Source: Prochloraceae cyanobacterium | GTDB taxonomy: Bacteria; Cyanobacteriota; Cyanobacteriia; Cyanobacteriales; JASJDA01 | Reading direction: 5' to 3' | DNA: 35,592 nucleotides | Assembly (NCBI GenBank): GCA_030065755.1 | Contig: JASJDA010000104.1 | Span: 1 to 35,592 of the forward strand | In this document: positions 17,047 to 29,349 of the stretch, one piece after another | How the letters are laid out: every line of letters begins with the position of its first letter | How positions within the stretch are numbered: the stretch's first letter is position 1 | Position numbers and translations under genes: made by a program | The notes under the pieces: model-generated | Seen by the model: the letters and a program-made list of their open reading frames with translations, nothing else | Databases searched by the model: none | What the model was told of the DNA's origin: nothing

Positions 17047-17894
17047 AACCGAGAATGATACAAACAGTAACGGGTTTCTTTATCGCCTTTTATTTCCTGT
17101 AGAAACTCAAACCAATTATCCAATACTTCCTGAATATCGAATACATCCTCATTGGTTATCTGGGTAATTTCCCTCAGTGAAACCCCTTCTTTTTCAGCAG
17201 AAACCAAAACCCGCAATACTGATAATTCTACGTCTGACAAACCCTCACCTTTCATTTTCTGCCAATGTTCGGAAAAAGATCGATCGTCGTCCCAGTTTTT
17301 TACATCGTATTCGGATAGATCCAGAATTTGTGAAGGAGTTTCAATTAATAAACCAGATTGTTCTTTTTTGAAAGGACGACGGGTGAGAATAAAATAGGTG
17401 CGATCGGGTAGATATCTGGGAAGATAAAACAAGTTTGTACCTGGGGGTCGATCGCTGGGGTTAATTGCGTCTAAAGCATCTATAGCAATAATTAGGGGTT
17501 GTCTTGGTTTTCTGTCGTCGCTTATTTTTTGCAGTAATAAGGAGAGAAACCAACTTCCTTCTGTTGCATTTTCAGCAATTTCCCTCTCTGTCCATTCCCC
17601 ATTTTCTATTTTCGCAGTTAATTGGGTACAAATGTATTTGAGAAATTCCTCAGTAGAATTTTTTCCCGCTACTTGGGCATTGTAATAAATAACATCAGGA
17701 TTATCTTTGGCATATTTAGCGAGAATAGTACTTTTACCGCTACCAGGAGAACCGACAATAATGAAATAACCCCGCTTATTATTGTGCAGGAAGTTGTCTA
17801 TAGCATTGAAGACAAATTCGCAGTTAGTGAAATTGGCGCTTTTTTCCTCTATTATTGTTTGGAATTGGGAATCTAATGGAACTGAGGTTTTCAT
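17001..17894 (-). CDS. Shortened NACHT/STAND-type ATPase, second copy
   Basis: The 297-residue P-loop protein has Walker A GSPGSGKST (48-56), Walker B PLIIAIDALDAI (133-144) and a sensor-like YFILTRRPF. It is a diverged paralogue of the ATPase at 20158-21834: NNKRGYFIIVGSPGSGKS matches NNSKGYFTIVGDAGMGKS, and YCLYHSRFGEWV matches YRFYHESFRDFL. Compared with that copy it lacks the N-terminal 190 or so residues and about 75 internal residues after ILDL (the joint is near NWDDDRSFSEHWQKM). Its C-terminal tail comes from a simple tandem repeat. The start overlaps the WD40 gene stop (ATGA). It could be a helper ATPase or a decaying copy; the P-loop itself is intact. Confidence 0.75.
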   Translation of the reverse strand: MKTSVPLDSQFQTIIEEKSANFTNCEFVFNAIDNFLHNNKRGYFIIVGSPGSGKSTILAKYAKDNPDVIYYNAQVAGKNSTEEFLKYICTQLTAKIENGEWTEREIAENATEGSWFLSLLLQKISDDRKPRQPLIIAIDALDAINPSDRPPGTNLFYLPRYLPDRTYFILTRRPFKKEQSGLLIETPSQILDLSEYDVKNWDDDRSFSEHWQKMKGEGLSDVELSVLRVLVSAEKEGVSLREITQITNEDVFDIQEVLDNWFEFLQEIKGDKETRYCLYHSRFGEWVRGRVGEGGSG

Positions 17895-20146
17895 GACTCT
17901 ACCTCATCGCATTTTAATCGCAAAAAATGAACCTTTCCAGATCGGTCTCCTGCGATTATTGTTCCACCATCAGAGGTAATAGCACAACAATCTATACTAT
18001 TTTCACCTCTAAAAGTAATAATTTCTTCTCCTGATGCTATATCCCATATTTTTATGGTGTTGTCCCTAGATCCAGAAACCACATATCGATCGTCTTGGCT
18101 TATGGCGATTGCAAAAACCAAGTCAAAATGACCAGTAAGAGTGCGAATTTCTTCTCCTGTTTCTCTTTTCCATACTTTTATGGTTTTGTCCTTAGATCCA
18201 GAAACCACATATCGATCGTCGTGGCTTATGGCGATCGCAAAAACCCAGTCAGAATGACCAGTAAGAGTGCGAATTTCTTGTCCTGTTGCTATATCCCATA
18301 CTTTTATGGTGTTGTCCCCAGATCCAGAAACCACATATTTATCCTTGTGGCTTATGGCGATCGCAAAAACCGAGTGAGAATGACCAGAAAGGGTGCGAAT
18401 TTTTTCTCCTGTTTCTTTTTTCCATATTTTTATGGTGTTGTCATCAGATCCAGAAACCACATATTTATCCTTGTGGCTTATGGCGATCGCAAAAACCCGG
18501 TCAGAATGACCAGTAAGAGTGCGAATTTTTTCTCCTGTTGCTATATCCCATACTTTTATGGTTTTGTCCTTAGATCCAGAAACCACATATTGATCGTCGT
18601 GGCTTATGGCGATCGCATTAACCGAGTCAGAATGACCAGAAAGGGTGCGAATTTCTTCTCCTGTTTTTCTTTTCCATATTTTTATGGTGTTGTCCCAAGA
18701 TCCAGAAACCACATATTTATCCTTGTGGCTAATGGCGATCGCATTAACCGAGTCAGAATGACCAGAAAGGGTGCGAATTTCTTCTCCTATTGCTAATGAC
18801 CATACTTTTATGGTGTTGTCGTTAGATCCAGAAACCACATATCGATCGTCGTGGCTAATGGCGATCGCAAAAACCGAGTCAGAATGACCAGAAAGGGTGC
18901 GAATTTCTTCTCCTGTTGCTAATGACCATATTTTTATGGTGTTGTCCTTAGATCCAGAAACCACATATCGATCCTTGTGACTAATGGCGATCGCCAAAAC
19001 CCAGTCAGAATGACCAGAAAGGGTGCAAATTTCTTCTCCTGTTGCTATATCCCATACTTTTATGGTGTTGTCTCTAGATCCAGAAACCACATATTGATCG
19101 TCGTGGCTTATGGCGATCGCATCAACCGAGTCTGTATGACCAGAAAGGGTGCAAATTTCTTCTCCTGGTGCTATTATTGAGCATACTTTTATGGTGTTGT
19201 CCCTAAATCCAGAAACCACATATTTATCATCCTCGTGGCTTATGGCGATATCCTCAACCCTGCTAATGGCGATCCCATTAACCCGGTCTATATGATCAGA
19301 AAGGGTGCAAATTTCTTCTCCTGTTGCTAATAACCATACTTCTACGGTGTAATCCGATGCAGAAAACACACATGTATCGTCGTGGCTTATGGCGATCGTA
19401 AAAACCCAGTAAGAATAACCAGAAAGGGTGCGAATTTCTTCTCCTGTTGCTAATAACCATACTTTTATGGTTTTGTCAGAAGATACAGAAACCACATATT
19501 GATCGTCGTGGCTTATGGCGATCGCATTAACCGAGTCTGTATGACCAGAAAGGGTGCGAATTTCTTGTCCTGTTGCTATATCCCATACTTTTATGGTTTT
19601 GTCCTTAGATCCAGAAACCACATATTGATCGTCGTGGCTAATGGCGATCGCATTAACCGAGTCTGTATGACCTGTAAGGGTGCCAATTAACCCATTCCCA
19701 GGAGGAGTTAAGCTAGGTGTCAGAGGAAGCAAGCATTGAATTTCGGTTTGGGATATTTTTTGTAGTAATTGTTGAATTTTTGTTTGTTTTTTAAAGAGTA
19801 ATAAACGTCCTGTTAATTGTCCTGCTAGTTGTTTTGTATCTCGATCTAAAATATGTGCTGAAAGTTGCAAAGCTTGTTTGATTAATTTTAAATCTTCCAG
19901 AGTTTCACTATTGTATTCTGGACGATCTGATAATTCAGCATTTTCAATTAACTCGTAATCTTCAATGAGCGATCGCACCCCAAATTTAGGGTGATTAATC
20001 TTTGCTTCGATAAAATCATAATCACTCAACGAAGAACATAACTTATTAACTCGACCAGATTCTAACCGCAAACGAGTAACTTCACCCAAAAAATGCTCTA
20101 TTTCTTCTGGTGAATTTTCTGCTAACCAAGTACGAACACTACTCAT
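17891..20146 (-). CDS. WD40 repeat sensor protein with about 14 near-identical repeats
   Basis: The 751-residue protein opens with a helical domain (residues 1-150) containing LSDYDFIEAKINHPKFGVRSLIEDY and LQLSAHILDRDTKQLAGQL. That region normally joins the NACHT ATPase to the propeller in single-chain cyanobacterial NACHT-WD40 proteins. From residue about 155 there are about 14 WD40 units of about 42 residues (consensus TLSGHSDSV.AIAISHDD.YVVSGS.D.TIKVW.IATGEEI), enough for two seven-blade propellers. Unit 3 is one residue short, unit 4 is irregular with an extra AISRVEDIAISHEDD stretch, and unit 14 is degenerate. Most variation falls on a few exposed positions, which suggests ligand recognition. 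It lies between two ATPase genes (11-base gap, then ATGA overlap). The inferred role is the sensing arm of a split STAND complex. Confidence 0.88.
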   Translation of the reverse strand: MSSVRTWLAENSPEEIEHFLGEVTRLRLESGRVNKLCSSLSDYDFIEAKINHPKFGVRSLIEDYELIENAELSDRPEYNSETLEDLKLIKQALQLSAHILDRDTKQLAGQLTGRLLLFKKQTKIQQLLQKISQTEIQCLLPLTPSLTPPGNGLIGTLTGHTDSVNAIAISHDDQYVVSGSKDKTIKVWDIATGQEIRTLSGHTDSVNAIAISHDDQYVVSVSSDKTIKVWLLATGEEIRTLSGYSYWVFTIAISHDDTCVFSASDYTVEVWLLATGEEICTLSDHIDRVNGIAISRVEDIAISHEDDKYVVSGFRDNTIKVCSIIAPGEEICTLSGHTDSVDAIAISHDDQYVVSGSRDNTIKVWDIATGEEICTLSGHSDWVLAIAISHKDRYVVSGSKDNTIKIWSLATGEEIRTLSGHSDSVFAIAISHDDRYVVSGSNDNTIKVWSLAIGEEIRTLSGHSDSVNAIAISHKDKYVVSGSWDNTIKIWKRKTGEEIRTLSGHSDSVNAIAISHDDQYVVSGSKDKTIKVWDIATGEKIRTLTGHSDRVFAIAISHKDKYVVSGSDDNTIKIWKKETGEKIRTLSGHSHSVFAIAISHKDKYVVSGSGDNTIKVWDIATGQEIRTLTGHSDWVFAIAISHDDRYVVSGSKDKTIKVWKRETGEEIRTLTGHFDLVFAIAISQDDRYVVSGSRDNTIKIWDIASGEEIITFRGENSIDCCAITSDGGTIIAGDRSGKVHFLRLKCDEVES

Positions 20147-22157: not shown

Positions 22158-22775
22158 TCATTGCCAAACGTAAATTAGAACAAACAAAATAATCCAAATT
22201 ACATCAACGAAATGCCAAAATAATGATGTTGCATTAACACCAAAGTGACCCGAGTCGTAGTTACCAGGAATAAACGATCGAAACAGAATCATTATCTGCA
22301 ACAAGATACCTATGAAGACGTGTAAACCGTGGAAACCCGTCAGCAGGTAAAAAGTTCCTCCAAATACACCACTAGTGAAACCAAATTCCAGATTACTCCA
22401 TTCGATCGCTTGTCCCAATAAGAAATAGCTTCCCATAGCGATTGTTGCCAAAAGAAAAATGCGAAATCCTTTGAGGTTGTGGCGCTGAAGTTCTTTTTCT
22501 GCTAAATAAATTACAAAACTACTAGAAACCAAAACTATAGAGTTAATTGCTGGTTCCCTAACTTCTAATCCTGAAACACCCGCAGGTAGCCAGTCAACGG
22601 TAGTCGTTTTATAAACAATATATCCAGCAAAAAAACTCAGGAAAATAATACTTTCCGACAGCAGAAAGACAATAAAGCCGAACATACTATTCCCTTCGTG
22701 GTCGTGAGTATGTTCTTCTGCTTCGTGAAGCAAATGTTCTATACTAAGAGACTCAGTGACGATCGTATTGCTCAT
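22158..22775 (-). CDS. ctaE: Haem-copper oxidase subunit III (ARTO CtaE)
   Basis: The 205-residue protein has five membrane helices and the subunit III signatures FGFIVFLLSESIIFLSFFAGY, TGFHGLHVFIGILLQ and FWHFVDVIWIILF. The His-rich N-terminus (LLHEAEEHTHDHEG) precedes the first helix. It begins one base after the ctaD stop, so the genes are translationally linked. Length is normal for the cyanobacterial five-helix form. Subunit III supports stability and proton supply of the oxidase. Because the intron blocks ctaD upstream, transcription reaching ctaE may be reduced or may start inside the intron. Confidence 0.93.
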   Translation of the reverse strand: MSNTIVTESLSIEHLLHEAEEHTHDHEGNSMFGFIVFLLSESIIFLSFFAGYIVYKTTTVDWLPAGVSGLEVREPAINSIVLVSSSFVIYLAEKELQRHNLKGFRIFLLATIAMGSYFLLGQAIEWSNLEFGFTSGVFGGTFYLLTGFHGLHVFIGILLQIMILFRSFIPGNYDSGHFGVNATSLFWHFVDVIWIILFVLIYVWQ

Positions 22776-22776
22776 T

Positions 22777-23459
22777 TTAGTGATGTTGTTTTTCAGTAAT
22801 TTCTTGTTGTTTTTGGCTGTTGCGGTATTTGCTGCGATCGAGAACTAAAGGTTCTGATTTACCATAGCCATAGGGTTCGGAAATAACGATCGGAATTTCG
22901 TCAAAATTTTCTATTGGGGGTGGGGAAGAGATTGTCCATTCCAGTCCGATCGCCCTCCAAGGGTTAGCGGGTGCTTTTTCGCCGTTTATCCAGGAACTGA
23001 TTATATTGAGGATAAAGGGTAAGGTAGACATTCCCAGTAAAAAAGCACCTAAACTAGCAATAACATTCCAAAAAGTATACTCAGGGGCATAAGAAGAGAC
23101 TCTACGCAACATCCCGTGTAAACCTAATGGGTGCATGGGTAAAAAGTTGAGGTTAGTACCGATGAATGTCAGCCAGAAGTGCAACTGACCTAAACCTTCG
23201 TAATACATTCGCCCTGTCATTTTCGGAAACCAGTGATATATAGCTGCATATATCCCCATGGTCACAGTTCCATAAAGGACGTAGTGAAAGTGACCGACAA
23301 TGAAGTAAGTATTGTTAACGTGAATGTCAACAGGAACAGAAGCCAGCATAATGCCAGTAATACCAGCAAAGACGAACATTACCAATGCGCCTAAAGCAAA
23401 TAACATTGCAGTCTTTAGGCGCAATTTGCCTCCCCAAATAGTACCAAGCCAAGCAAATA
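22777..23459 (-). pseudogene. ctaD: ctaD, C-terminal part (226 residues) after the intron
   Basis: This is the downstream exon-equivalent of subunit I. The native sequence resumes at FAWLGTIWGGKL and includes VNNTYFIVGHFHYVLYG, whose two His are the conserved haem a3 and haem a ligands, and it runs to a normal cytoplasmic tail. Joining base 23459 to 26198 rebuilds ...PTGIK-V-FAWLG... in frame, with the valine codon split by the intron. An open frame reaches back into the intron to a Met at 23493, adding 12 foreign residues (MWGLISSQRIAL). A separate C-terminal polypeptide could therefore be made if a transcript covered it. Confidence 0.92.
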
Positions 23460-24166
23460 GTGCGATTCGTTGGCTAGAAATCAAGCCCCACAAGGGTTAG
23501 AAGGATTAGCCGCTAGGAATTAATGGAGAGTGCCTTAATCTCTCAGAACCTAGACAACTTAACTAGCCTGATGGTGAGCCTGGTATAAAGTTATACCTAC
23601 AACTTGTGAAAGTTGAAGAAATATAACAGAAATACCTAATCTTAATAAAGAAACAAGCAAGTCCATCTCTCCAGGTGCAGGAGTAAAAGCATCGCCCCCA
23701 GGGTAGCGAACGGTCATCAATCCCTGAAGCGGGGTGAAATGTCGATATCTACCAGCCTAAAGGTAGAAACTCGGCTAGCAACCGACCATGAGCAAGCTAA
23801 AAGCTGAAAAAAACCTGAGTGTCACCATTAACCTTGTCTTAGCAGCGAAATAAGGCTGACACGCTGCGGTCAAAATAAGACCTCGGAGTGGAAAACTGTA
23901 ATATTTGAGCAGTAAAAGTCAATCATGCTTTCGATGATTGATTGTACCCGTAAAACTCCTGGTGATTGAAAGGAACTCTAAAGTCGGAAACCTAGGCTAG
24001 TTAGGAACGAATTAACCTCTGGGCTTACTCTCGGTAAGGTCGAAAACGCCGAGTAGTCAACCAAGACGCAAAACTCTACTACTGTAGGTAACTCAGAGGA
24101 AAGATTGCGTAAGAAAGCAAAAGCCTGGGGTAACTCCCAAGGATAAGCAGACGTACGCACGGAAAC

Positions 24167-26191
24167 ATGAATGATAAAAGCTATCAACAGAGAGCAAAGT
24201 TACCGATGAGTAAGTCGTCACACGACCGAAAAAGTAAAATTGAATACTGGCACGATATCCCTTGGAAACGAGCGGAAAAAGTCGTATTCTCTCTCCAGAG
24301 ACGGATTTATCAAGCTAGTCAACGTGGCGATGTCAAAGCTATCCGCAGACTACAAAAACTACTGCTCAGAAGCTTCTTTGCTAAGGCAATAGCGGTTAGA
24401 AGGGTAACACAGGATAATCAGGGCAAGAAAACGGCAGGGATAGACGGGATTAAATCCCTAACACCCAAACAACGTCTAGAACTGGTCTATACGCTCAAAC
24501 CTTTAACTGGGAAAGCTAAATCTGTACGTAGAGTATGGATACCAAAACCAGGAAAGAACGAAAAGAGACCATTAGGAATTCCAGTTATGGAAGACCGCGC
24601 TAGACAATGCTTAGTCAAATTAGCCTTAGAGCCTGAATGGGAGGCTCGATTCGAGCCAAACTCCTACGGTTTTAGACCTGGTAGAAGCTGTCACGACGCT
24701 ATTGTACAAATACAAAACTGTTTAAAACAAAAAACAGCATATGTATTAGACGCTGACATAGCAAAATGTTTTGACAGAATAAACCACAAAGTCCTAATAG
24801 AAAAACTTAATACCTTCCCTGCCATGAGAAGGCAGATAAAAGCCTGGCTTACTTCGGAAATAAAGGATGGATTTGAATTATTTCCGTCATCTGAAGGTAC
24901 ACCGCAAGGTGGAGTGATTTCCCCTCTATTAGCAAATATCGCATTACACGGACTCGAAAATCACCTAAAAACATGGATAAAAGGAAAAACCATCAGACAT
25001 CCAACAGGAAAGGTGATGTCAAAAATACAAAAAGGAGAGTCCCTCGGTGTAATAAGATACGCAGATGACTTTGTAATCATACACAAAGACATCGAAATAA
25101 TAAAAGAGGCAACCGAAATCACAAAAACCTGGTTAAAAGAACTAGGACTAGAGCTAAAGCCAGAAAAAACAAGAGTCTGTCACACAATTTATAGGCATGA
25201 AAAAGAAAAACCTGGGTTTAATTTCCTCGGATTCAACATCAGGCAATACAAAACTGGGAAACACCATGCAAATAAAACGCCGACAGGCAAGGTAAAACCA
25301 TACACCCTAAACATCAAACCGACTAAAGAAAAGTGTCTAAAACATTATAAGGAAATAAGCCAAATAATCAACAGACACAAAGCAGCCCCACAAAGAGCAT
25401 TAATCAGTAAACTAAACCCTATCATCAGAGGATGGTCTAACTACTACAAATACTCTGTATGTAGCAAGACCTTCAAAAAGATAGACTATCTCCTCTTCTG
25501 GAAGCTCAAAAAATGGGCTGACAAAAGACACCCGAAAAAATCCTGGAAATTTAAAAAACCTAAATACTGGAAAACTATAGGAGGTGATAATTGGGTTTTT
25601 TCAGATGGTAATAGCAGACTCATAAAACACAAAAAGAATTATGATGAGCCTGAAATCATTAACAGGAAAAAGGGAAGGAAACAAAAAGAGTACTTTATCA
25701 AGGTACAAAACAAGCGCTCCCCCTACGATGGAGACACGGTTTACTGGAGCAGCAGATTAGGCAAACACCCAAATATGCCTACAAGTAAAGCAAAAATGCT
25801 CAAATGGCAAGACGGGAAATGTCCACACTGCGGATTAAGTTTCAAATATGAAGATGTAATGGAAATCGACCATATCATCCCACGCAAAGCGGGGGGTAAT
25901 AGCAGTTATAAAAATCTCCAACTTCTTCACAGACATTGCCATGATGAAAAAACAAAGGACGACTTAAAATTAATTGCCGAGTACCAAAACCGCAAGGAAT
26001 TAGAAAAGCAATACAACAAGTCTATCAAATGGTTCAATAACCTATTCTCTCAGGAGAAATGGGAATGGATTAATGATATCCCTGTTTTGACCAGTGTTCG
26101 TGACAAGAATCATGTTTCTGAGGAGCCGTGTGAGGCGAAAATTTCATGCACGGTTTTGAAGACGAGCGGGTCGGGTGACCGATTCGCTTAG
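24167..26191 (+). CDS. ltrA: Group II intron-encoded reverse transcriptase/maturase with HNH endonuclease
   Basis: The 674-residue protein helps the intron splice and copy itself into DNA. Reverse transcriptase blocks are visible: RRVWIPKPGKNEKRPLGIP, SYGFRPGRSCHDA, DADIAKCFDRINH, GTPQGGVISPLLANIAL and the catalytic IRYADDFVII (YADD 298-301). The maturase X region follows (LNPIIRGWSNYYKYSVCSKTF). The C-terminal HNH nuclease has CPHCG, MEIDHIIPRKAGG and NLQLLHRHCHDEKT (about 545-605). All catalytic motifs are intact, so the element could be active. The frame runs on through domains V and VI to a stop 6 bases before the intron end; the last 30 or so residues therefore serve also as ribozyme sequence and may not matter for the protein. 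Confidence 0.93.
   Translation: MNDKSYQQRAKLPMSKSSHDRKSKIEYWHDIPWKRAEKVVFSLQRRIYQASQRGDVKAIRRLQKLLLRSFFAKAIAVRRVTQDNQGKKTAGIDGIKSLTPKQRLELVYTLKPLTGKAKSVRRVWIPKPGKNEKRPLGIPVMEDRARQCLVKLALEPEWEARFEPNSYGFRPGRSCHDAIVQIQNCLKQKTAYVLDADIAKCFDRINHKVLIEKLNTFPAMRRQIKAWLTSEIKDGFELFPSSEGTPQGGVISPLLANIALHGLENHLKTWIKGKTIRHPTGKVMSKIQKGESLGVIRYADDFVIIHKDIEIIKEATEITKTWLKELGLELKPEKTRVCHTIYRHEKEKPGFNFLGFNIRQYKTGKHHANKTPTGKVKPYTLNIKPTKEKCLKHYKEISQIINRHKAAPQRALISKLNPIIRGWSNYYKYSVCSKTFKKIDYLLFWKLKKWADKRHPKKSWKFKKPKYWKTIGGDNWVFSDGNSRLIKHKKNYDEPEIINRKKGRKQKEYFIKVQNKRSPYDGDTVYWSSRLGKHPNMPTSKAKMLKWQDGKCPHCGLSFKYEDVMEIDHIIPRKAGGNSSYKNLQLLHRHCHDEKTKDDLKLIAEYQNRKELEKQYNKSIKWFNNLFSQEKWEWINDIPVLTSVRDKNHVSEEPCEAKISCTVLKTSGSGDRFA
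26123..26156 (+). ncRNA. Group II intron domain V
   Basis: GAGCCGTG at the 5' side pairs with CACGGTTTT at the 3' side around a GAAA-type loop. This 34-base hairpin is the catalytic centre of the ribozyme and its most conserved part. Its strand (plus) fixes the polarity of the intron as opposite to ctaD. Confidence 0.85.
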
Positions 26192-26197
26192 TTTAAT

Positions 26198-27224
26198 CCT
26201 TAATCCCAGTAGGTACGGAAACAAACATGGTAGATAGCATAAATACCATCCGCATCCAGCCAGGAGTACCGCTAGCATACATGTGGTGTACCCAAACCAG
26301 ACCGCTAACTCCAGCAATGATCAGAGATGAAATTGCTACTACTTTGTAACCAAATAAAGGTTTGCGGGAGTATACAGGAAATATTTCCGAAAAAATGCCA
26401 AAAATGGGCAAAATAATTACATAAACGGCGGGGTGAGAATAAAACCAAAACAAGTGCTGGAATAGGACGGGATTTCCTCCTCTAGCGGGGTCAAAAAAGC
26501 CAGTTCCAACTGTTAAATCGAACAAGAGCATAAGTGCAGCCGCTGTTAATGCAGGAAGTCCGAATAATTGGATAATTTGGGCGCTGAGTACAGTCCAGAC
26601 AAAGATAGGCATCCGAAAGAAAGTCATTCCAGGGGCGCGCATCTTGACGATCGTAGTGACAAAGTTAACAGCTCCCATAATTGAGGAAATACCCGATACA
26701 AATATGGCTAAAATCCACAGAACTTGACCGTTAAAGAGGAAATTTGTCGCCATTTGAGTACTTACAGGAGGATAAGACCACCAACCAGCTTGTGCCGATC
26801 CCCCTGGCACAAAGAAACTAGCAACAGTTAAAATCCCTACTACTGGAACCATCCAGAAAGCAGCTGCATTAAGACGCGGAAATGCCATATCTTCTGCGCC
26901 TATCATTATCGGAACGATATAGTTGGCTAAACCAACTAAAGAAGGAAACGTCCACAAAAACAGCATTATTGTGCCGTGCATGGTGAACGCGCCATTATAC
27001 ATAGTGCGATCGATTAAATCCGAGGCAGGAGTAATCAATTCTGCCCGAATTATCATTGCTAAAATACCGCCAAGAAGAAAGAAAAAGAAGGAAGTAACTA
27101 GATACTGAATGCCAATGACTTTGTGGTCGGTACTGAAAGTAAAATATCGCTTCCACTCTCTTCCAGCTTGGGGAGGATCTTGTTCGGTTTCGATAATAAT
27201 GTTTTTTAAAGGGGCTGTTTTCAT
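26198..27224 (-). pseudogene. ctaD: ctaD, N-terminal part (342 residues) before the intron
   Basis: Subunit I of the haem-copper oxidase, first part. Ligands are present: His in GAFTMHGTIMLF (low-spin haem), HLFWFYSHPAVYV with the CuB His and cross-linked Tyr, and WVHHMYASG with the CuB His pair. After PTGIK the frame enters antisense intron sequence and stops after one extra residue (D). With the second part the gene would encode 569 residues, normal for CtaD. No other damage is seen, so the disruption appears recent. As it stands, this copy makes a 343-residue fragment lacking the last helices and two haem ligands. Confidence 0.93.
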
Positions 27225-27230
27225 TTGATT

Positions 27231-28127
27231 TTAGCTATGATAATTGACTATTGGAGACGCGCTAGGCGCGATCGTCTCCCAACCACTGGGGTTTGGATGT
27301 TTTAATTCTCGATCGTATTCAGAAGCAGCCTGATTGTATGCAGGGGTAGGTTCTTGCTTAGCAGCTACTTCCAGCCAGTGAAGATAATCTTCACTAGATT
27401 CCACAACCACATTCGCTTCCATAGTTGCAAAATAAGTACCGCTAAATTGAGAATCTGTCAGTCTATATTCACCGTTGCGAATAGGAGTAAATTCCAAGTC
27501 AATACTTTCATTGGGAATAATATCTTGCTTGACCCGAAAATCAGGGATATAGAAACCGTGGAGAACGTCTTCTGATGTTAATGCCAAGCGAACTCTTTTA
27601 TTAACAGGTAAATGCAGTTCCGTACTGGTAATGTTTTTATCTGGGTAGCGAAATACCCAAGCCCACTGCTTTGCTAGCACTTCAATTTCTTCAATCTCGG
27701 ACTTGGAATGAATAGGGGCAGCGTGGGCAGGTTCCATGACGTGTATGTGGTGCGCCATTTCCATCGGCCCTCGAATTGCTATTTTAACGTAAGCGTCGTA
27801 GCTATAACCAGCAATCCAAAAAACCAGCAGAATCGGAATTGCTGTCCAAACGATTTCTAAGGTGAGATTACCTTCAATATGAGGACCATCGCTGAGGTCA
27901 TATTCTTCTGCGCGATGGAAAATAACTGAATACATTAAAGTTCCAGTGACCCCCAAAAAGATAAACGTACCGAGAGTTACTAAAAGACTAAATACATTAT
28001 CGATCGTGCGAGATTCTGCTGCCGCTTCTACAGGAAGCCAGCCATAAGACAATTGTCCGACCCAAATACTAACAGCAGTTAGAAATAAGGCGATCGCGAC
28101 TAATTTCAAAATATTCCCAATTTTCAT
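27231..28127 (-). CDS. ctaC: Oxidase subunit II without the CuA site (ARTO CtaC)
   Basis: The 298-residue protein has a signal or first helix, a second membrane pair (about 45-70 and 90-110) and a cupredoxin domain. His190 (DVLHGFYIPDFRVKQD) remains, but the CuA loop that normally reads C-x-E-x-C-G-x-x-H-x-x-M is here D225-S-Q227-F-S229-G-T-Y-F233-A-T-M236. Both Cys, the Glu and the second His are gone. That loss is the mark of cyanobacterial ARTO, thought to oxidise quinol instead of cytochrome c or plastocyanin. A GAGGG ribosome-binding site precedes the ATG. Near its C-terminus, residues ETIAPSAS are encoded by a dispersed repeat. It lies 6 bases before ctaD. Confidence 0.9.
   Translation of the reverse strand: MKIGNILKLVAIALFLTAVSIWVGQLSYGWLPVEAAAESRTIDNVFSLLVTLGTFIFLGVTGTLMYSVIFHRAEEYDLSDGPHIEGNLTLEIVWTAIPILLVFWIAGYSYDAYVKIAIRGPMEMAHHIHVMEPAHAAPIHSKSEIEEIEVLAKQWAWVFRYPDKNITSTELHLPVNKRVRLALTSEDVLHGFYIPDFRVKQDIIPNESIDLEFTPIRNGEYRLTDSQFSGTYFATMEANVVVESSEDYLHWLEVAAKQEPTPAYNQAASEYDRELKHPNPSGWETIAPSASPIVNYHS
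27253..27279. repeat. GC-rich dispersed inverted repeat in the ctaC 3' end
   Basis: GGAGACG (27253-27259) pairs with CGTCTCC (27273-27279), with an inner CGCG-rich loop. This resembles the GAGACGCG short repeats scattered in many cyanobacterial genomes. It is read through in frame as part of the last 16 residues of CtaC. Confidence 0.5.
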
Positions 28128-28136
28128 TTTTTCCCT

Positions 28137-28745
28137 CTATTTCAGTATCAGATTGGGATCTAAGCCCGATCGCAACAAACCCCCTGCTGTATTGTGTATC
28201 TCAAATTCCGCTGCCAATTGCGCTCCTAAAGTTCCGTGAACGTACAATACAAACATAATCGCCAATCCAGCTAGCAAATAAGCCCAATGGACTTGTACTG
28301 TTGCTTCTTGACGCTGCCAGCGATACCTTTGATACCCTCTCCAGACAGTCATCCCCACCATTAGCGCCAGCAGAAAAACACCGCCAACACCGTGCCAAAT
28401 CATGGTTTCCATCGCCTGTAATCCCCAGGCACTCTTGATGTCTGTTATCGGATCTGCTAAAACTATCTCGTAAAACCCTGCTGCTACGGTGAAAAAAGTA
28501 ACGATCGCCGCAGCCAGCATATTGTACCAGCCCACATCAAAAAAGTTAGAAGGAACCGCAGGGAGTGCCAACAATTTCAGAATAGGTTTTCCCAGGGGAA
28601 AAAATACGCCCAGAATATCGCAAGTAACGCCAATGATAAACAAACCTAGGGTTAAATGAACTAAGTTAGGATGAATAGGTATAGAGTAGGGGAGTCCGTT
28701 TGCTCCAAGTTGAGATCCTATTTGGTCAATTAGTTCAGAATTCAC
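28137..28745 (-). CDS. DUF2231 membrane protein 2 of the ARTO operon
   Basis: The 202-residue protein has four membrane helices. IHPNLVHLTLGLFIIGVTCDILG opens the DUF2231 domain, and WYNMLAAAIVTFFTVAAGFYEIV, MIWHGVGGVFLLALMVGMTVWRGYQR and AYLLAGLAIMFVLYVHGTLGAQL follow. Conserved His residues in helices 1, 3 and 4 could bind haem, but this is inference. The start is the GTG at 28745, overlapping the previous gene's stop (GTGA), so the pair is translationally coupled. It stands 9 bases before ctaC. Its role is unknown; the tight linkage suggests assembly of, or electron delivery to, the oxidase. Confidence 0.8.
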   Translation of the reverse strand: MNSELIDQIGSQLGANGLPYSIPIHPNLVHLTLGLFIIGVTCDILGVFFPLGKPILKLLALPAVPSNFFDVGWYNMLAAAIVTFFTVAAGFYEIVLADPITDIKSAWGLQAMETMIWHGVGGVFLLALMVGMTVWRGYQRYRWQRQEATVQVHWAYLLAGLAIMFVLYVHGTLGAQLAAEFEIHNTAGGLLRSGLDPNLILK

Positions 28746-29239
28746 TGTAAAATTCCCTCTTTAATCGCTTCAACAATTGGTACTGTATGCACTCCATAAA
28801 CCCAAACTAATTCATCTCCGAGATACACTTGAACGCCAACTATAACTACTAAAACCAGTGCCATTCCTAGATATGAAATTGGTAATTTTTCAGAGTTGCG
28901 CGATCGAATTACGTAGCGCCAACCTGTAATTGCAGCAATTATTCCTGAAAGCGACCAGCCAATTAGAGTATGTAAATTTAGTACGGGTTCGACTGCTTCG
29001 TAAGGTTGTGCCAAACCTGCTTCCAATTGACCGAAAATAATGGCTATGAAGATAGAAACGGTAGCAAAAAACATATTCCACCAACTCACCTCATATAAAC
29101 GGGAATTCCGCTTAAAATAGCCGATTACATCGCAAACAAAAGCAAATAATACCATCGCAATTACGAAATGTACGACTATAGGATGAAGAGTATCGGGATA
29201 GGGTAAATTGTGGTCATTTAAAGGTAGAAAATCTCCCAT
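28742..29239 (-). CDS. DUF2231 membrane protein 1, first gene of the ARTO operon
   Basis: The product is 165 residues from the ATG at 29239. I choose that start because a GGAG ribosome-binding site lies 6 bases upstream; a GTG at 29254 would place that site inside the gene. It has four helices with the DUF2231 pattern: LPYPDTLHPIVVHFVIAMVLFAFVCDVIG, WWNMFFATVSIFIAIIFGQLEAGLA, LNLHTLIGWSLSGIIAAITGWRY, and a last helix with VVIVGVQVYLGDELVW. It is homologous to the next gene, so the two probably form a heterodimer. The operon leader upstream carries two operator-like palindromes. Confidence 0.8.
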   Translation of the reverse strand: MGDFLPLNDHNLPYPDTLHPIVVHFVIAMVLFAFVCDVIGYFKRNSRLYEVSWWNMFFATVSIFIAIIFGQLEAGLAQPYEAVEPVLNLHTLIGWSLSGIIAAITGWRYVIRSRNSEKLPISYLGMALVLVVIVGVQVYLGDELVWVYGVHTVPIVEAIKEGILQ

Positions 29240-29349
29240 AGTATTCTCCAACACATAGCTGTTAAATTTCGAGTGTTTCTAAAACAAACTTAGGCGACAC
29301 AGAAAATATAATTCGCGATCGTTTATACTTATTTATTAAGTTTACTTAA

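Follow-up and report, generated by a model that had tools for sequence, protein, structure and literature searches.

Group II introns of the cyanobacterium Thermosynechococcus elongatus are described as lying mostly at well-matched sites, and the poorly matched sites are ascribed to infrequent retrotransposition, with poor splicing expected there (PMC2882425). In the passages of that account used here, the words "antisense" and "orientation" occur 0 times. Antisense insertion of a targetron is used as a knock-out (PMC2435150), and RmInt1 is reported from oxidoreductase genes of Sinorhizobium meliloti (PMC5894124). Here we describe a ctaD gene, for subunit I of a haem-copper oxidase, that is most likely switched off by an antisense group II intron. 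The window, i.e. the whole stretch of 35,592 nucleotides that was analysed, is contig C82 of a draft cyanobacterial genome (8.46 Mb, 455 contigs, 2.09% contamination). The original prediction for this DNA, a complete antisense group II intron in ctaD, was right in its coordinates, strands and frame. Two intact oxidase sets, 31 further domain V/VI matches, other antisense cases and a poor EBS1 pairing come in addition to what it contained.

A split oxidase gene

The ctaD gene lies on the minus strand at 22777-27224, outer coordinates that belong to the split gene and not to the intron, and it is read as two ORFs (26193-27224 and 22777-23493). Its 5' part (26198..27224) holds residues 1-342 and the first base of V343, matching COX1 profile positions 2-289, and its 3' part (22777..23459) holds the remainder of V343 to residue 569, matching positions 289-436. 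Removal of 23460-26197 gives, as had been claimed, a single 569-aa frame reading ...PTGIK-V-FAW..., with zero bases lost or gained. The full set of haem and CuB ligands expected from the prediction is also in place, the joined protein carrying H83, H264/Y268, H313/H314 and H399/H401, with K342 directly before the joint. We assume for these residues the haem, CuB and K-channel roles known from the haem-copper oxidase literature. The split leaves the CuB ligands on one side and H399/H401 on the other. The N-terminal frame ends one residue past K342, and the C-terminal frame opens with a TTG within intron sequence, with no clear ribosome-binding site by eye.

The neighbouring genes, all on the minus strand, are a ctaC-like subunit II gene (27231..28127; COX2 and COX2_TM), a ctaE-like subunit III gene (22158..22775; COX3, E 5.9e-33) and, upstream of ctaC, two DUF2231 membrane-protein genes (28137..29254, as 28137-28745 and 28742-29254; PF09990). 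Aligned with the COX-type paralogue on contig C341, the CtaC beside the split gene lacks the CuA cysteines (SQFSGTY vs AELCGSY). These cysteines are also absent from the paralogue on contig C288 and from the congener's orthologue. Because of this CuA-less CtaC, the split gene fits subunit I of an ARTO-type oxidase, in support of the identity originally proposed. Its relatives at 60-85% identity in the named genome collection are cyanobacteria.

Anatomy and strand of the intron

The intron covers 23460..26197 on the plus strand, 2738 bases, antisense to ctaD, and five other copies in the same genome align by BLAST over its full length (1-2738) at 80-82% identity. Of the features of mobile group II introns, it has the terminal bases, domains V and VI, and an ORF for a reverse transcriptase-maturase-endonuclease in domain IV. 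Domains V and VI reach the 3' splice site (26121..26197; RF00029, 49.4 bits, cut-off 40), and RF04357, also for domain V/VI, matches at 26120-26160 (56.3 bits, cut-off 53). The ORF (24167..26191) is intact and encodes 674 aa with YADD present; it scores above the cut-off for TIGR04416 (E 1.6e-99), and a profile search finds RVT_1, RVT_N, GIIM and HNH. All of these lie on the plus strand, and when domain V and the GTGCG start were sought on the minus strand, both were found on the plus strand instead. Since the ribozyme is on the plus strand and ctaD on the minus strand, the ctaD message is expected to be unspliceable. Together with the early stop and the TTG in the intron, the opposite strands support the original view that this would be a real disruption and not a self-splicing insertion.

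The termini, GTGCG...TTTAAT, fit the 5' GUGYG and 3' AY of mobile group II introns, and those of the sister copies are alike. The start GTGCGATTCGT is common to 15 rows and the end CTTAGTTTAAT likewise to 15, in each case between unrelated flanks; as one contig is listed twice in each list, the distinct ends number 14 on the 5' side and 14 on the 3' side, the window included. It is this agreement among sister copies, together with the K-V conserved at the insertion site in ctaD homologues, that fixes the boundary. Restoration of the frame was rejected as proof, as the frame stays open in 11 of 13 trial deletions: among shifts of -6 to +6, this holds for all those from -4 to +6, with changes only in residues at the joint.

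Bearing on a possible assignment to group IIB, with a CL-type IEP, are a candidate EBS3 column (7/9 copies) and the nearest solved reverse transcriptase, 6me0 (E 1.3e-93), which we take to be the T. elongatus TeI4h complex. A search of 388 genomes of the order with the intron DNA gave, among the matches listed, hits to most of the intron only in its own genome and in the congener (73%), and the next best genome matched 887 query bases at 67%. The element would be a group IIB-like mobile intron with an HNH domain, from a family that appears, as far as searched, private to this cyanobacterial genus.

Sister copies and their orientation

Relatives of the intron in the same genome amount to 58 BLAST rows, and domain V/VI matches to 32, i.e. 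the ctaD copy and 31 others. Where 3' flanks could be inspected, an antisense frame (at least 94 aa) is the longest at the joint in 4/31 (C82, C396, C405 and C166) and a sense frame in 7/31, one of which, on C29, has a near-equal rival on the opposite strand. The frames in the antisense cases are ctaD on C82, a frame without Pfam match on C396, one with a weak DHO_dh match below the cut-off on C405, and a transposase on C166; for the last two, one side only was inspected. Group II introns lying antisense in genes are therefore not unique to ctaD in this genome. The sense copies rejoin their host genes in frame at all six joints checked, fabG-, rtcB- and glycosyl hydrolase-like genes included.

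Pairing with the target site

Covariation with the upstream exon, across the 11 copies with a readable hairpin, was used to locate EBS1 and EBS2. Seven of the 11 form at least 5/6 Watson-Crick pairs at both elements. The ctaD copy forms 3/6 at EBS1 and 5/6 at EBS2 over exon -14..-9 (6/7 over -14..-8), and the remaining three copies, at EBS1 and EBS2 respectively, 2/6 and 6/6 (L014), 4/6 and 6/6 (L017), and 4/6 and 6/6 (L025). On the plus strand, the target-site exon from -14 to -1 lies at 23446..23459 (IBS2 -14..-8, IBS1 -6..-1), the inferred EBS2 (TTGTCTT) at 23834..23840, and the inferred EBS1 loop (GCTTTCG) at 23927..23933. This loop, terminal in the predicted fold and two bases shorter than in most sister copies, reaches its 3/6 with exon -6..-1 as the best pairing, a score equalled by 31% of random sites. 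The 7-mer score of EBS2 is equalled by 1.25% of 20000 random window sites, and its 6/7 at its own site compares with a best of 5/7 among the ctaD homologue sites compared. A candidate EBS3 base, the T at 23967 on the plus strand, was picked after the fact as the alignment column best in +1 complementarity (7/9 copies); in the ctaD copy it is mismatched with the +1 base C.

Guidance of the ctaD insertion by EBS2 is suggestive only, because the 6/7 register was found after two tests had failed. With a free register over whole hairpins the ctaD copy was at background, 53% of random sites giving equal pairing, and with the register fixed by the alignment its EBS2 scored 1/6. The EBS2 mismatch implied by the latter was rejected, since copies whose EBS2 is shifted are misread when the register is fixed by the alignment; with the register corrected, the copies on C396 and C321 also rose to 6/6. 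A search of the genome for a former home site matching the copy's own EBS1 and EBS2 gave no signal (4 matches vs 4 for a reversed-pattern control). Good EBS1 pairing was found in 6/7 sense and 0/2 antisense copies, two copies of unclear orientation being excluded, a difference that is not significant (Fisher p 0.083). The pairing pattern of the ctaD copy suggests retrotransposition into a poorly matched site, a process also proposed for Thermosynechococcus.

Age of the insertion

Signs of decay were sought in the ctaD halves, by residue changes and by dN/dS against the congener, and none was found. There are 12 residues unique to the window vs 14 unique to the congener, with 56 ambiguous, and dN/dS is 0.062 and 0.076 for the two parts, at a dS near saturation (1.2-1.7); for ctaC and ctaE it is 0.135 and 0.075. 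With both halves undecayed, the disruption looks recent, and ctaD would have been functional until recently, or its parts would still be so.

The intron, examined by its RT ORF and its ribozyme deviations, likewise gave no sign of decay. The reverse transcriptase frame is open, with pairwise dN/dS of 0.14-0.18 to nine sisters, like other copies, and dS of 0.63-0.83. Private deviations number 12 in the 5' ribozyme part (3-23 in ten other copies) and 1 in the 3' part.

Copies are 70-85% identical, and the tree of the sister copies is near-star with long tips, that of the ctaD copy measuring 0.14 changes per column. The closest copy over >1 kb reaches 85% identity. With no copy above this value the assembly contains no near-identical donor, so the donor would be lost, unassembled or outside the genome. 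Such a missing donor fits poorly with a jump made very recently inside this genome.

The absence of decay bears on the strongest alternative, which accepts the antisense insertion and differs in how it arose. The intron may have arrived by ordinary, well-matched retrohoming, its EBS1 drifting later in an antisense copy free of splicing pressure. An EBS2 that still pairs at 6/7 beside a shortened EBS1 loop would agree with this, and EBS sequences are called malleable by Mohr et al. (PMC2882425). However, drift would have struck EBS1 while leaving undecayed both the remainder of the intron copy, judged by its RT dN/dS and private deviations, and ctaD itself. We consider this course possible, though on balance doubtful, and a poorly matched arrival remains our preferred reading.

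Oxidase complement and related loci

The assembly contains three COX1 loci, of which two, besides the split ctaD, are intact and open over 565 and 568 codons. The locus on C288 has a CuA-less CtaC and a subunit I with 74% identity across the N-terminal query; that on C341 has a CuA-type CtaC and a subunit I with 57% identity. The genome thus encodes two ARTO-type sets, one broken and one intact, and one intact COX set. Published work on Synechocystis 6803 and Synechococcus 7002 describes their COX and ARTO genes as non-essential (PMC9313322). Given this and the spare sets, it is plausible that the loss of ARTO subunit I is tolerated, probably buffered by the remaining oxidases.

A comparison of the locus with close relatives, suggested with the original prediction, found the congener's orthologue, 84% identical, uninterrupted. 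The same insertion was not found in a close relative, the family of this cyanobacterium consisting of two genomes. Among 84 other ctaD loci, 82 encode a protein that crosses the insertion site in one alignment; the exceptions are L084, where the match stops at residue 254, and L098, where the contig ends at the site.

The insertion could also be an allele, with empty and filled ctaD coexisting within one polyploid cell or among mixed strains and the assembly showing one of them. Cyanobacteria can be polyploid (PMC8919778), and the assembly is both fragmented into its 455 contigs and, at 2.09%, slightly contaminated. Yet none of its just three COX1 loci is an empty copy of the split ctaD, and we regard such coexistence as improbable.

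The gene could further be split rather than dead, both parts being expressed and assembling as a two-piece subunit I. Both are open and conserved without excess change, and the missing near-identical donor leaves room for an old insertion. Against this, the C-terminal frame has only the TTG start in the intron, with no clear ribosome-binding site by eye, the parts are separated by 2.7 kb of complement-strand RNA, and the break separates the CuB ligands from H399/H401. Nor do promoter-like sites exceed shuffles: a scan found 12 vs a shuffle mean of 15.8, and 11 terminator-like sites vs 7.9 (sd 2.8), which is uninformative. A two-piece subunit I is therefore very improbable, and its most specific form, in which the antisense intron turned CtaD into two separately translated pieces, both under selection, with the break after the K-channel lysine, is harder still to credit. 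Least credible of all is that the assembler joined the intron into ctaD: the element is repetitive, the genome is a draft and one congener copy is flanked by different ORFs on its two sides, but here the intron is flanked by the halves of a single gene, which join without loss or gain of a base, and the genome has no copy that is near-identical along its length.

Proposed mechanism and comparison with known systems

We thus propose, as a likely account drawn from the sequence, a poorly matched antisense retrotransposition that left an unspliceable ctaD knock-out and a stranded intron copy. Of the two ARTO-type ctaD genes, one would have received the intron on its antisense strand by reverse splicing, at a site recognised by EBS2 and not by EBS1. 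As the ctaD mRNA would hold only the complement of the ribozyme, no splicing would follow, and the result would be an unconditional natural knock-out like that of an antisense targetron. ARTO function would be lost, with the CuB ligands of subunit I severed from its proximal haem ligands. The intron would also splice poorly from a plus-strand transcript, since EBS1, and perhaps EBS3, is unpaired with the flanks, and the copy is probably stranded despite an intact-reading reverse transcriptase.

If so, one genome pairs sense copies that rejoin their genes in frame with a gene-disrupting antisense copy, the exon pairing differing to match. Whether well-matched homing is neutral for the host, and poorly matched retrotransposition costly, thereby becomes directly testable. 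The locus also provides, in a cyanobacterium that has two other oxidase sets, a natural mutant of ARTO subunit I.

A literature search found no report of a bacterial oxidase gene carrying a group II intron in antisense, which does not prove that there is none. Both the element and the event are of a known kind, and the novelty lies in the example, in the paralogues that accompany it and in how its pairing contrasts with that of the sisters. As far as the parts of the published accounts used here go, the family resembles TeI3/TeI4 of T. elongatus (group IIB1, CL-type IEPs) in being a multi-copy cyanobacterial family with varied EBS, in which well-matched sites prevail and some are poorly matched (PMC2882425). 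It differs in that its copies, at 70-85% identity, are not near-identical, and in that the poorly matched TeI3/TeI4 introns are mostly intergenic, whereas the one described here lies antisense in a conserved oxidase gene (PMC2882425). With the antisense targetron (Ll.LtrB in lacZ) the ctaD intron would share an unconditional disruption, yet the targetron is engineered and retargeted, and the ctaD intron is natural and carries its RT ORF (PMC2435150). RmInt1 is likewise a case of natural ectopic invasion of bacterial metabolic genes; in contrast to the intron in ctaD, it lacks an endonuclease domain and inserts ectopically at a site similar to the homing site (PMC5894124).

The reverse transcriptase frame of the intron in ctaD (24167-26191, plus strand, 674 aa) remains open across domain V and into domain VI, of which it covers the greater part, its stop falling at 26191 and the intron end at 26197. 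Five sister copies (L015, L016, L019, L020 and L021) can be aligned as far as this same final residue, 674. If this frame is translated to its end, the catalytic RNA core would be overrun by translation.

Other copies of the intron in the same genome are sense-oriented and lie in or against conserved genes, namely L028 (contig C204) and L020 (C416); L026 (C222) and L021 (C239); and copies on C252, C420, C286 and C336. The genes at these copies are fabG-like, rtcB, inorganic pyrophosphatase, glutaredoxin, a GH1 glycosidase and rhomboid. Joining the two flanks keeps the reading frame in the fabG-, rtcB- and GH1-like genes. Expression of a fabG-like gene may therefore depend on removal of the intron by splicing.

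In the alignment of the copies, L022 (C286), L026 and L028 have inserts that resemble one another at approximately intron position 573; these are bounded by terminal inverted repeats and are possibly a small MITE-like element. A diverged copy (L023, contig C47, 70%) is preceded by a long sense frame, by eye resembling a TnpB-type protein. In the window itself, a 751-aa ORF (17891-20146, minus strand) contains many near-identical repeats, which by eye have the appearance of WD40 units.

In the congener genome, an intron 73% identical (L151, G001:C101:2286-5090) is flanked by ORFs that look different on its two sides, one protease-like and the other aminotransferase-like by eye, which suggests either that copies of the intron have recombined or that the contig was misjoined. 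In Calothrix sp. PCC 7103, the ctaD match (L084, 8001-8738) extends no further than residue 254, which may reflect a separate interruption at a site other than that in the window.
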